A stretch of DNA of 33,204 nt from Pseudomonadota bacterium (lineage in GTDB: Bacteria; Pseudomonadota; Alphaproteobacteria; SP197): contig JAQCLG010000023.1 in assembly GCA_027592745.1 (NCBI GenBank), positions 1 to 33,204 of the forward strand, written 5' to 3'. Below the pieces are notes generated by a model. That model was not told where the DNA came from and made no database searches. It saw nothing but the letters and a program-made list of their open reading frames with translations. Positions 4,182 through 25,396 of this stretch are shown piece by piece. Every line of letters starts with the position of its first letter. The first letter of the stretch is position 1. The translations under genes were made by a program, and so were the position numbers.

Positions 4182-5384
4182 ATGGCACAGGAACCGCTTT
4201 CGCAACGCACGCATACGACCCTGGAGGCGATGGCTGCCGTGGCCAGCGACGGCAATGCCGCCTGGCTTACCCTGCCGCCCGACGCCTACTGCAATCCCGA
4301 AATCTTTGCCCTGGAGAAGGAAAGGATCTTCCGTTCCGGATGGATCGCCCTGGGGCGGGCCGACGAGGTCGCCCAGACGGGCGCCTATGTCGCGCGCGAT
4401 GTGCTCGGTGTGCCGCTGGCCATGGTGCGCGGCCATGACGGCATGCTGCGCGTTTTCACCAACATGTGCCGCCACCGCTGGATGCGCCTGCTGGAGGGCA
4501 GCGGACGCAAGGCGGTGATGACCTGTCCCTACCATGCCTGGGCCTACGGCATGGACGGTCGCCTGCGTTCGGCCCCGGACATGGATCGCCATCCCTGCCT
4601 CGACAAGGCGGAGATCCGGCTCGAGGAGGTCGCCCACGAGGTCTGGCAGGGTTTCGTCTATGTCAACCTGGACGGCAAGGCGGCACCCCTGGCGCCGCGC
4701 CTTGCCGATCTCGATCCCCGTCTGGCCGCCTACGGCCTCAAGGATTGGGTGACCGCAGCGACGATCGAGTGCGGAGAGATTCCCTGGGACTGGAAGGTCA
4801 TGCAGGACAACGGGGAGTGTTACCACCACGCGGGGCTGCACCCGGAAACCTTCCAGGAGACCTTCCCCGGCGAGGAAGCGGGCGCGCAGATCGGGCGCGA
4901 CTGGACCCTGTTGTGGACCCCGGCCCGCGAGGCCCTGCTGCAGGACGGCCCCGACGGCAAGGTCATGCCCGGCCTTTTCTTCCCGCCGCTGGCCGGGCTC
5001 GACGGTTTCCAGCGGCGCAACTTCCTGCTGGTCTACGTGCTGCCGAACTTCTTCATCTACCTGCAGCCCGATTGCGGCCTGCTGATCCGGGTCGTGCCCC
5101 TGGCAGCGGGGCGTTGCGCCATGGCCGCCGATGTCCTGGTGCCGGCGGCAACCCGGAACCTGCCCGACTACGCGGAGCGGCTGGCGCGCCTCGTTGCCTT
5201 CTTCGAGCGTTTCAACGAGGAGGACACGCCGGTCAATACGGCGATCCAGCAGGCCCTGGAGAGCGGATACGCCCACCGCGCCCCGCTGTCCCATCTGGAG
5301 GCGCACAACCGCCATGTCGCATGGTGGGTTGCACAGGCACTGACGCGGGACGATGCCGGCCAGGGGGCACTGGCAGCCGAGTAG
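4182..5384 (+). CDS. Rieske non-haem iron oxygenase, alpha subunit (GbcA/CntA-like features)
   Basis: A 400-residue Rieske oxygenase catalytic subunit. The Rieske [2Fe-2S] ligands are Cys96 and His98 (CRHR) and Cys115 and His118 (CPYHAW). The mononuclear iron site is DNGECYHHAGLH, with His215 and His220, and probably Asp348 in NEEDTPVNTAIQ. The residue bridging the two centres is Glu212 rather than the usual Asp. Glu at this position is known in carnitine and other quaternary-amine oxygenases, so demethylation or C-N cleavage is as likely as ring hydroxylation. The ATG at 4182 was chosen because the Rieske fold then begins at the normal distance; the frame is open far upstream but overlaps the DODA gene. 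No reductase gene is nearby, so electrons must come from a partner elsewhere. Confidence 0.88.
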   Translation: MAQEPLSQRTHTTLEAMAAVASDGNAAWLTLPPDAYCNPEIFALEKERIFRSGWIALGRADEVAQTGAYVARDVLGVPLAMVRGHDGMLRVFTNMCRHRWMRLLEGSGRKAVMTCPYHAWAYGMDGRLRSAPDMDRHPCLDKAEIRLEEVAHEVWQGFVYVNLDGKAAPLAPRLADLDPRLAAYGLKDWVTAATIECGEIPWDWKVMQDNGECYHHAGLHPETFQETFPGEEAGAQIGRDWTLLWTPAREALLQDGPDGKVMPGLFFPPLAGLDGFQRRNFLLVYVLPNFFIYLQPDCGLLIRVVPLAAGRCAMAADVLVPAATRNLPDYAERLARLVAFFERFNEEDTPVNTAIQQALESGYAHRAPLSHLEAHNRHVAWWVAQALTRDDAGQGALAAE

Positions 5385-22066: not shown

Positions 22067-23287
22067 TCAGGCCACCCGGCTGAGGTACCAGTCGATGAAT
22101 TCGCGGGTCCAGCCCTCGTGCTCGGAATAACGACCCGGGGCGTAGCGGCGCGAGTTCACACCCTTCTGGTTGTCGTTGATGATCTTGGTGTCCTCGATCG
22201 TCGTGACATCCCACATCCACTTCAGCTTCTCGACGTCGAAATCGCGGCCTTCCTGGGCATCGCCGCGCACGACCCAGGAGACGCGGACCTCGCTGAAGCC
22301 GGTCGAGACCGGCGTGAAGCGGAACAGGGTGGCGTGGTCGGTGCAGAGATAGACGTAGAACAGCGGACCGAAGGCGATCAGGGCCTCGCCGTCGTCGGGT
22401 TCGCGTTCGGGATTGAGCAGCGGCGCGACATAACCGCCGTCCTGGGACAGCGTGTGGAAGCCGTCGCGGATCGGCTGGCGGAAGACGGTCCAGGGCTGGC
22501 GCGGATCGCGCGTTTCCGGGCCCAGGAAATCCACAGCATGGCCCTTGATCGACCAGGTCGCACGCCAGTCCTGCACCACCTTCTGGCGCCCCTCGGGATC
22601 GCGGTCGCCATCGTTCACGTAGGCGTTGACCTGGGTGTATTCGGGATGGGCCGGGGCGCAGTGGTAACACTCGTGGAAGTTCTCCACGGCGAGCTTCCAG
22701 TTGGCGTCGGTGGGGTAGAGTTCGGTGTGGACGACCTTGGCCCCGGCGAGGTTGGCATGGTCGATGTAGGGACCGAGATCGCGCGCCATGGCGGCGAAAT
22801 CGGCGACTTGCGGATCGCCTTCCGGGGCAAGGTTGATGAAGATCATGCCGTTCCAGACACGCACCGCACAGGTGTGCAGCGGCCAGTCCTCGGGCTTGAA
22901 GTCCTCGGCCATCTGGCGCGCGCGGATCAGCCTGCCCTCCAGGTCCCAGACCCAGGCGTGGTAGGGGCAGGTCAGGGTGCGGACGTGGCCCTTGGGGTTG
23001 AGGCAGATGCGGCTGCCGCGGTGGCGGCAGACGTTGAAGAAGGCATGGATCGCCCTGCTCTTGGCATGGACCAGGATGATCGACTCGCCGGCGATCTCGT
23101 AGGTGATGTAGTCGCCCGGCGTCGGCAGAGCACTGATGTGGTCGACGAACAGCCACTGCTTGGCAACGATCGCCTCGAGGTCGCGGGCAAAGACGCCGGG
23201 GTCGGTATAAAACGGCTGCTCCAGCGTCATGCCCGGCGTCTGGCGGGCGACGAGATCGGCGATGGGCATGTTGTCGATCACGGACAT
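22067..23287 (-). CDS. Rieske oxygenase alpha subunit, probable quaternary-amine (glycine betaine-type) monooxygenase
   Basis: A 406-residue Rieske oxygenase. Cluster ligands are Cys87, His89 (CRHRGSR), Cys107 and His110 (CPYHAW). The mononuclear site is ENFHECYHCAPAHPEY with His209 and His214, and probably Asp366 in IEDTKIINDNQ. Glu206 takes the bridging position, as in carnitine and betaine oxygenases. The C-terminus RYSEHEGWTREFIDWYL resembles GbcA-type enzymes, which demethylate glycine betaine to dimethylglycine. The ATG at 23285-23287 has CCGGAG at nine bases and overlaps the end of the BetI-like gene by 10 bp, so both are co-translated. No reductase subunit is nearby. Betaine is the best guess; carnitine, stachydrine or another N-methylated substrate is possible. 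Confidence 0.87.
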   Translation of the reverse strand: MSVIDNMPIADLVARQTPGMTLEQPFYTDPGVFARDLEAIVAKQWLFVDHISALPTPGDYITYEIAGESIILVHAKSRAIHAFFNVCRHRGSRICLNPKGHVRTLTCPYHAWVWDLEGRLIRARQMAEDFKPEDWPLHTCAVRVWNGMIFINLAPEGDPQVADFAAMARDLGPYIDHANLAGAKVVHTELYPTDANWKLAVENFHECYHCAPAHPEYTQVNAYVNDGDRDPEGRQKVVQDWRATWSIKGHAVDFLGPETRDPRQPWTVFRQPIRDGFHTLSQDGGYVAPLLNPEREPDDGEALIAFGPLFYVYLCTDHATLFRFTPVSTGFSEVRVSWVVRGDAQEGRDFDVEKLKWMWDVTTIEDTKIINDNQKGVNSRRYAPGRYSEHEGWTREFIDWYLSRVA

Positions 23288-23889
23288 GGCAGTGACTCCG
23301 GCTTGGGATCAAGGGCGTTGGCGACAAAGTCGAGGCCGGCGCGGATCGCGACCTCGCGGCTGATGGTGTCGGGCTCCAGCAGGTGCTGCAGCCACAGGCC
23401 GTCCGACAGGGCGACAAAGCCGCAGGCGGTCTGCCAGGCATCCAGCGCGATGCCGGCCTCGTGCGCGGCCGCAGCGAAGTGTTCGGCGGCGTCGCGGCGA
23501 AGTTCGTCATAGAGGCGGGTGTTGACCGCGCGCAGCTCGGGCACGGAGAGAGCGGCCACGGAATAGGCAAGCCATGCCGAGATCTCGGCGGGCTGCAGAT
23601 TGGTGAACATGTCGCGCGCCAGGGCGTCGAGCTGCGCGCGACCGGGTGCGCCGATGCGTTCGCGCCGTGCCTGGCAGGCGGCGTGCCACTCCGCGCCGAC
23701 GTGTTCGTAGGCTGCGACCAGCAGGGCGTCCTTGGACTTGAAGCAATGGCGGATCATACCGCGGGAGAGATCGGCCAGGCTGCAGATCGTCTCGACCGTG
23801 GTGTCGGCATAACCATGCCGATGAATCGACTCGATGGTCGCGTCGATCAGGGCCTTCTCGGCGGCCGGCATGGTTGTCGCTAACGCCAC
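23278..23889 (-). CDS. TetR-family transcriptional regulator, BetI-like
   Basis: A 203-residue regulator. The N-terminal helix-turn-helix spans roughly residues 25-60 (HRHGYADTTVETICSLADLSRGMIRHCFKSKDALL). The C-terminal ligand domain includes EISAWLAYSVAALSVPELRAVN and CGFVALSDGLWLQHLL, which resemble BetI, the choline/betaine-sensing repressor. The start is GTG at 23887-23889 with AGGAG six bases upstream; an internal ATG at 23871 is an alternative. It overlaps the Rieske gene by 10 bp and is preceded by a perfect 22-bp palindrome, so it probably represses itself and the oxygenase until the amine ligand appears. Confidence 0.88.
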   Translation of the reverse strand: MALATTMPAAEKALIDATIESIHRHGYADTTVETICSLADLSRGMIRHCFKSKDALLVAAYEHVGAEWHAACQARRERIGAPGRAQLDALARDMFTNLQPAEISAWLAYSVAALSVPELRAVNTRLYDELRRDAAEHFAAAAHEAGIALDAWQTACGFVALSDGLWLQHLLEPDTISREVAIRAGLDFVANALDPKPESLPCP

Positions 23890-23895
23890 GTCATG

Positions 23896-23917
23896 CTCCT
23901 ATACAGCTGTATAGGAG
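23896..23917. promoter_or_regulatory. Perfect 22-bp palindrome, probable operator of the BetI-like regulator
   Basis: The left arm CTCCTATACAG is followed directly by its exact reverse complement, with no mismatch and no spacer. It begins 7 bp upstream of the regulator's GTG. On the coding strand the last five bases, AGGAG, are the ribosome binding site. TetR regulators bind dyads of this size, so autoregulation is likely. If transcribed, the dyad could fold with CUCCU pairing to AGGAG. Confidence 0.78.
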
Positions 23918-23923
23918 ACTAGG

Positions 23924-23955
23924 CCCGCCGAACCGCCCGAGGCAAGCCCGGCGGG
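23924..23955 (-). terminator. GC hairpin directly after phoR
   Basis: CCCGCCG (23924-23930) and CGGCGGG (23949-23955) are perfect complements starting just after the phoR stop. No T run follows on the minus strand, so Rho-independent termination would be weak. It may separate phoR from the BetI-like gene downstream. Confidence 0.4.
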
Positions 23956-23956
23956 T

Positions 23957-25396
23957 TCACGATTTGCCCTGGACGCCCGTTGCGGTGTCGCCGGCTTCGA
24001 CCACCGCCGGCAGCCAGACGGTGAAGGTGGAGCCTACGCCGATGCGGCTCTCGACCTCCAGTTCGCCGCGATGGCGGTTCAGCACGTGCTTGACGATGGC
24101 AAGGCCCAGGCCGGTGCCCCCCAGTTCGCGGCTGCGCGCGGTATCGACCCGGTAGAAGCGTTCGGTCAGGCGCGGAATGTGCTGGGCGGGAATGCCCTCG
24201 CCCCGGTCGGTCACCGCGATCGAGATAGCCGGGCCGCGCGCGATGCGCAGGTGCACCGGGCTGACCGCATGGAGGCGGGCTACGAGCATGATCGGCGTGC
24301 CCGCACGGCCGTACTTCAGGGCATTGGAGACGAGATTGTAGATGACCTGCTCGACCTCGTTTTCGTCGCCGCGCACCGGGGGGAGGTCGCCGGGCACGGA
24401 GAGTTCGAGCGGCATGCGCCGTTCCTCGGCCTCGTAGCCCAGCGACGTCGTCAACCGCGTCAGCACGGCGGCGACGTCGACCTCGCCGGTCGGCTGGGCG
24501 TGCTCCTTGAGCTCGATGCGTGAGAGCGAGAGCAGGTCGCCGACCAGCCGGGCCATGCGCCTGCCCTGGTCGTCCATCATCTCCAGGAAACGCTCCTGGG
24601 CCTCGGTATCGTCGCGGGCAGGGCCGCGCAGGGTCTCGATGCAGCCGATCAGGGTGGCGAGCGGCGAGCGGATCTCGTGGCTGGCATTGGCGACGAAATC
24701 GACGCGCATCTGCTCGGTCCGGCGCATCGCGGTGATGTCGTGCAGCGCAATCATCACAGCCGGGCCGGCGCCGCTTGCGGCCGGCAGCGGCGCGACGTCG
24801 ACGGCATAGGCGCGCTCGACATGACCCGAGGGCAGACTGATCTCGGCGTTCTGGCTTTCCTGGTCGGCAAGGGCGGCATCGACCGCCTCGGTCAGGGCGG
24901 GATCGCGCACCACCCGAGCCAGGTCGCGCCCGGCCGCCCCCTCGCCGAACAGGGTGCGCCCGGCACGGTTCAGCCGCACGACCCGGTGATCGCGGGCGAG
25001 CAGCAAAAGGGGATCGGGCAGGGCGTCGAGCAGGCGGTCGGCCTCGGCCTGCAGCGCATCGATGCGGCGGTCGCGGCCGCCGACCAGCTCGCGCACCGCT
25101 TCGGCCATGGCACCGAGTGCGCCGCTCCCCGGCCCGCTGCGCAGCACCGGCGGGCTGGGCGTGCCGACATGGTCGAGCACGGCGAGCCAGCCGCCCAGCG
25201 CCTCCAGGTTGCGCGCCAGGGGGCGGACGAGGACCAGGGTCGCCGCACCCAGCAGAACGAGGCCGATGGCCAGGGCCAGGCTGTCGATGTGGCCGGTCAA
25301 CCGCAGGCCGCCCAGCACCGCGACCTCGGCCGCCAGCAGCGGCAGGGCGAGTTTCAGCCAGGTGCCGGTGACGGCGCCCAGCACCGGCGGCGCCAT
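23957..25396 (-). CDS. phoR: Phosphate regulon sensor histidine kinase PhoR
   Basis: A 479-residue membrane-bound kinase that phosphorylates PhoB when phosphate is low. Two N-terminal hydrophobic helices (about 14-32 and 40-58) are separated by a very short loop, as usual for PhoR, which senses through PstB/PhoU rather than a periplasmic domain. A PAS-like region (LLDALPDPLLLLARDHRVVRLNRAGRTLFG) follows, then HisKA with His240 in NASHEIRSPL, and HATPase_c with EQVIYNLVSNALKYG, TDRGEGIP and GGTGLGLAIVKHVL. It starts 6 bp after maeB and is likely co-transcribed with it. Unusually, two unrelated genes separate it from pst-phoB. Confidence 0.9.
   Translation of the reverse strand: MAPPVLGAVTGTWLKLALPLLAAEVAVLGGLRLTGHIDSLALAIGLVLLGAATLVLVRPLARNLEALGGWLAVLDHVGTPSPPVLRSGPGSGALGAMAEAVRELVGGRDRRIDALQAEADRLLDALPDPLLLLARDHRVVRLNRAGRTLFGEGAAGRDLARVVRDPALTEAVDAALADQESQNAEISLPSGHVERAYAVDVAPLPAASGAGPAVMIALHDITAMRRTEQMRVDFVANASHEIRSPLATLIGCIETLRGPARDDTEAQERFLEMMDDQGRRMARLVGDLLSLSRIELKEHAQPTGEVDVAAVLTRLTTSLGYEAEERRMPLELSVPGDLPPVRGDENEVEQVIYNLVSNALKYGRAGTPIMLVARLHAVSPVHLRIARGPAISIAVTDRGEGIPAQHIPRLTERFYRVDTARSRELGGTGLGLAIVKHVLNRHRGELEVESRIGVGSTFTVWLPAVVEAGDTATGVQGKS

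Follow-up and report, generated by a model that had tools for sequence, protein, structure and literature searches.

In Ruegeria pomeroyi, the TetR-family regulator BetI1 acts both on the operon that encodes it and on a betB gene elsewhere in the genome, via a palindrome at the promoter, the BetI1 box, ATTGACG*CGTCAAT (PMC12442346). Of the known systems this is the closest analogue of the locus described here, which likewise combines a TetR-family regulator that has a BetI-type C-terminal domain with probable quaternary-amine metabolism, and for which the predicted targets are again the operon of the regulator itself plus an enzyme gene that is unlinked to it. The site, however, reads YTATAC-N4-GTATAG and is unrelated in sequence to the BetI1 box, and the predicted targets are Rieske oxygenases and not Bet enzymes. 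As in autoregulated operators of the TetR family, the palindrome lies in the promoter/leader of the regulator gene, with a target enzyme gene adjacent. The difference from the usual operators of this family is one of placement, in that the Shine-Dalgarno sequence (SD) is overlapped; the leader is very short and the operator lies at its beginning, which produces the overlap. No TetR operators overlapping a Shine-Dalgarno sequence were found in the open-access literature, and TATACAGCTGTATA had no match there, although searches of open-access text provide weak evidence of this kind. Another described system to be considered is the protection of the IS10 transposase from read-through by a hairpin that hides the SD.

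The palindrome CTCCTATACAGCTGTATAGGAG is located at positions 23896–23917 of the window, i.e., the whole 33,204-nt stretch of DNA that was analyzed. It consists of two 11-nt arms, 100% complementary and with no spacer between them, and it matches exactly, in sequence and coordinates, the 22-bp dyad without mismatches that an earlier note on this DNA had described (no strand is assigned to it). It is the sole perfect palindrome of the window with arms of at least 8 nt. Base composition predicts 0.030 perfect 22-bp palindromes in the window, and of 400 windows generated with a first-order Markov model, 14 hold one. When only the 67 bp separating phoR and tetR are considered, the expected number falls to 4e-5. 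The core of the dyad, CTATAC-N4-GTATAG (23899–23914, no strand assigned), has a G+C content of 37.5%, as against 68% for the window.

The adjacent regulator gene, tetR, is on the minus strand at 23278–23889 and encodes a TetR-family protein of 203 aa with a GTG start. On the minus strand the right arm of the dyad ends in AGGAG (23900–23896), followed by the 6 nt CATGAC and the GTG (23889–23887), just as had been claimed; one outer arm is simply the Shine-Dalgarno sequence of tetR. A related genome of the same genus, the congener, retains both the SD and the GTG, 7 nt apart, and has no in-frame ATG matching the one at 23872, so that the GTG is likely the tetR start. The translated sequence matches PF00440 (TetR_N, helix-turn-helix) with 40.1 bits (cut-off 24) and PF13977 (TetR_C_6, the BetI-type C-terminal domain) with 58.5 bits (cut-off 27). 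The two BetI equivalog models are not passed (NF001978, 96.3 against a cut-off of 118; TIGR03384, 90.1 against 201.3), and there are no bet genes beside the regulator, the neighbors being phoR, a Rieske oxygenase gene and pstS. Judged by its sequence, the regulator is not BetI proper, and the term "BetI-like" given to it earlier holds for the type of C-terminal domain but not for BetI itself, as the protein scores below both equivalog cut-offs and no BetI box is present.

The presumed operon partner, rieske1 (22067–23287, minus strand), overlaps tetR by 10 nt and encodes a Rieske oxygenase alpha subunit that is quaternary-amine demethylase-like. It does not pass the equivalog model of GbcA, the glycine betaine monooxygenase (302 bits against 670). 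Among solved structures, those nearest to it are 3n0q, 3vca and 4qup; 3vca is the proline betaine (stachydrine) demethylase Stc2. Upstream of tetR on the same strand is the sensor kinase gene phoR (23957–25396, minus strand), a possible source of read-through RNA. Past the phoR stop codon, at 23927–23956, there is a G+C-rich inverted repeat, CCCGCCG...CGGCGGG, without a T-run. The tetR-rieske pair (22067–23889) is seated between phoR and pstS, an arrangement that, among the genomes compared, is peculiar to the own genome and its congener; nine relatives within the family, as well as the more distant G016 and G018, have pstS immediately behind phoR, with no such pair in between.

Close orthologues of the regulator were sought in contigs of 84,980 species. 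Only one was found, in the congener, an uncultured Rhodospirillaceae (92–93% identity), and there were no further ones among 385 genomes of the class. The comparison is therefore one of few lineages, namely two species of one genus. The congener site CTCCTATACACACGTATAGAAG is identical at 18 of 22 positions, and the 30-bp flanks are identical at 16/30 and 16/30. Neither half-site, CTATAC or GTATAG, has changed, and the differences fall in the center and in one outer pair. In this orthologous regulator/Rieske pair, then, the core half-sites are intact within flanks that are about half identical, and the inverted repeat at the tetR promoter/leader is more conserved than its surroundings, a pattern used to recognize TetR operators. 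Because the half-sites are unchanged while the center and an outer pair are altered, the perfect symmetry across 22 bp is partly coincidental. The conserved unit is not the full 22-bp symmetry; what recurs is the 16-bp core YTATAC-N4-GTATAG, with a variable 4-bp center and variable outer pairs.

The half-sites are also retained at a second location that is unlinked to tetR. In pattern searches of the own genome and of the congener, CTATACN4GTATAG with at most one mismatch is found at exactly two places per genome. TATACN4GTATA with 0 mismatches is found at those same two places, where 0.19 are expected per genome, and no perfect copies are present in two genomes of a sister genus. The second sites, TTATACGAGTGTATAG and TTATACGTTTGTATAG, are orthologous between the own genome and the congener, and their cores are identical at 14/16 positions, compared with 9/30 and 8/30 for the flanks (alignment gaps scored as differences). 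In both genomes the site is directly upstream of another Rieske oxygenase gene, rieske2, whose protein shows 85% identity between the two and is related to carnitine monooxygenase (6y8j, 285 bits). In the own genome the rieske2 site overlaps the −10 region of a promoter-like sequence, TTGACG-17-GATTAT; in both genomes it lies upstream of the Shine-Dalgarno sequence and does not cover it. The site was not found at the rieske2 orthologues of eight relatives, and in seven of these eight no regulator with the recognition helix described below was found. Some 39 Rieske-type genes are present in the own genome, G000 (3.85 Mb), a count based on 40 matches, of which two are apparently fragments of one gene; on this basis a chance placement of the motif just upstream of a Rieske gene is unlikely. 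One more of these approximately 39 alpha-subunit genes, an unusually large set, is at 4746–5342 of the window.

Other candidates were set aside. A third site, AATACAATCGTATA (G000:C141:1470), upstream of an EamA-type transporter gene, was rejected, as the orthologous region of the congener does not have it. A near-match, TATACCTCGGTCTA (L132 and L133), is present in both genomes but differs in its second half-site. Dyads near other BetI-like genes (e.g., L009 and L010) were dropped, as these are downstream of the genes.

A regulator from another genus, that of genome G004, is 38–40% identical to the one described here (38% overall) and has almost the same recognition helix, LSRGMVRHYF, compared with LSRGMIRHCF. 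Its gene is divergent to another Rieske gene, a different paralogue. The intergenic region carries ATACGAGCGTAT and an imperfect tandem copy; the stretch ATACGATCATATTAATACGAGCGTAT represents two tandem ATAC-N4-(G/A)TAT sites. These are overlapped by a promoter-like sequence, TTGCCA-17-CATATT, and sit some 55–85 bp before the likely ATG, clear of any Shine-Dalgarno sequence. The site was not found at G004's own rieske2 orthologue. In a survey of 79 BetI-like upstream regions, TACN4GTA is present upstream of 3/3 regulators with this helix and of 2/76 others, and ATACN4GTAT with 0 mismatches upstream of 3/3 and of none of the others; it should be noted that two of the three helix-bearing regulators are from congeners, so that the agreement represents two independent lineages.

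The dyad is thus very probably the operator of the adjacent TetR autorepressor, predicted to control tetR-rieske1 in cis and rieske2 in trans. The earlier proposal of a TetR operator is borne out by the conservation in the congener, the match of helix and half-site in G004 and the second copy before rieske2, and a role at the DNA level is strongly supported. Points that speak against this reading are the small number of lineages compared, the negative strict sigma-70 scans at the tetR site and at the congener's sites, and G004, where the half-site precedes a different Rieske paralogue and the rieske2 orthologue has no site. Without inducer, the repressor would occupy YTATAC-N4-GTATAG across the initiation region and keep its own operon, tetR-rieske1, from being transcribed; the unlinked rieske2, where the site covers the −10 region of the putative promoter, would be blocked as well. 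Release would be by a substrate, which, from the relatives of the enzymes, is probably an N-methylated or quaternary amine. The set of two sites looks like an ordinary small regulon. A defined operator, YTATAC-N4-GTATAG, with a likely repressor and two likely targets would thus be available in a lineage where one genome holds about 39 Rieske genes, and a regulon of two genes helps to single out the oxygenases that respond to a common inducer.

A functional role at the RNA level, in addition to that of DNA operator, was considered as well. The 22-mer in the RNA form has a computed fold with a 9-bp stem, an AGCU loop and −11.7 kcal/mol, and thus the nine-bp stem with AGCU loop that had been proposed is reproduced. 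The congener RNA also folds into 9 bp (−8.8 kcal/mol), with a G-U pair at the altered outer position; this is a single C-to-U change in the outer arm, seen in one comparison, that with the congener. Only in RNA starting before the dyad or near its 5′ end could the stem hide the tetR SD. When the RNA starts at 23915 or higher, the computed probability that AGGAG is open stays under 0.0001; it is about 0.01 for starts around 23908–23911, and about 0.1–0.15 for starts from 23906 down to 23899. A strict sigma-70 promoter scan shows nothing at the tetR site or at the congener's sites. By eye, a weak candidate can be seen on the minus strand at 23916–23945, consisting of TTGCCT (23945–23940), 18 nt, and TAGTCT (23921–23916). 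The TTGCC is common to all three tetR upstream regions (own genome, congener and G004). By analogy with the G004 sequence TTGCCA-17-CATATT, and with weak matches, this candidate promoter may start RNA at about 23908–23911, inside the dyad. RNA from the gene's own promoter would then be without much of the 5′ arm, and RNA reading through from phoR would carry it.

With phoR on the same strand and 67 bp upstream, the operator may double as a translational insulator, whereby the dyad folds up in transcripts running on from phoR and masks the tetR SD. The tetR-rieske pair would then be silent in phosphate-operon RNA, and RNA from its own promoter, starting inside the dyad, would be translated. The fold, its maintenance in the congener by G-U pairing and the near closure of the SD in RNA starting at or above 23915 are consistent with such a dual role. 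Against it are the rieske2 operators, which are upstream of the SD, the position of the G004 sites, and the candidate promoter, from which RNA would begin within the dyad. The stability of the leader is modest relative to shuffled sequences (z of −2.1 and −1.4), and a search of Rfam gave no match. In addition, the core pairs are dictated by the DNA site and are uninformative on RNA, and because of this selection for RNA pairing is not demonstrable from these data; the single informative change in an outer pair, where G-U pairing is retained, is too little to show it. The similarity to IS10 is that a hairpin hiding the SD would form here if the RNA starts upstream of the dyad, and only then; in contrast to IS10, read-through RNA and selection for the hairpin are without support. 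The dual role, including that of a translational insulator, is therefore considered unlikely. Of the double role suggested in the earlier note, the DNA operator stands and the RNA switch is without independent support, the other sites being off the ribosome binding site and the predicted start of transcription inside the dyad. The same note had ranked the DNA role above the RNA role, and this order is retained. Thus a striking overlap with a ribosome binding site need not imply control at the RNA level.

Binding of the dyad by a palindrome-binding regulator other than the adjacent TetR should also be considered, since two sites per genome do not identify the protein and binding by TetR is a prediction. 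However, tetR is adjacent to the dyad, helix and half-site agree across genera, and where relatives lack this helix, their rieske2 orthologues have no site, which makes another regulator very unlikely. That the dyad represents a chance palindrome or a transcription terminator with no regulatory role is scarcely credible: about 3% of such windows should hold a perfect 22-bp palindrome, but this one is a conserved island within diverged DNA and has a conserved second copy, so that the conservation of both sites already contradicts this reading, and there is no T-run and a terminator search found none.

Apart from the operator of the adjacent tetR, several dyads were seen upstream of other regulators. 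At L015, an ATTGTAC-GAAT-GTACAAT dyad is found some 180 nt ahead of the helix region of another BetI-like regulator with the helix VAPGLLTHYF, and is probably the operator of that regulator. A perfect 26-bp palindrome, AAACATACCAACCGGTTGGTATGTTT, longer than the 22-bp dyad studied here, precedes the match start by about 40 nt at L028, before a TetR gene of another family. The sequence TAGACAAATGTATA (G007:C52:5700-5713), one mismatch from the motif, is upstream of a regulator with the helix VSHGLARHYF, and is possibly the operator of a cousin regulator.
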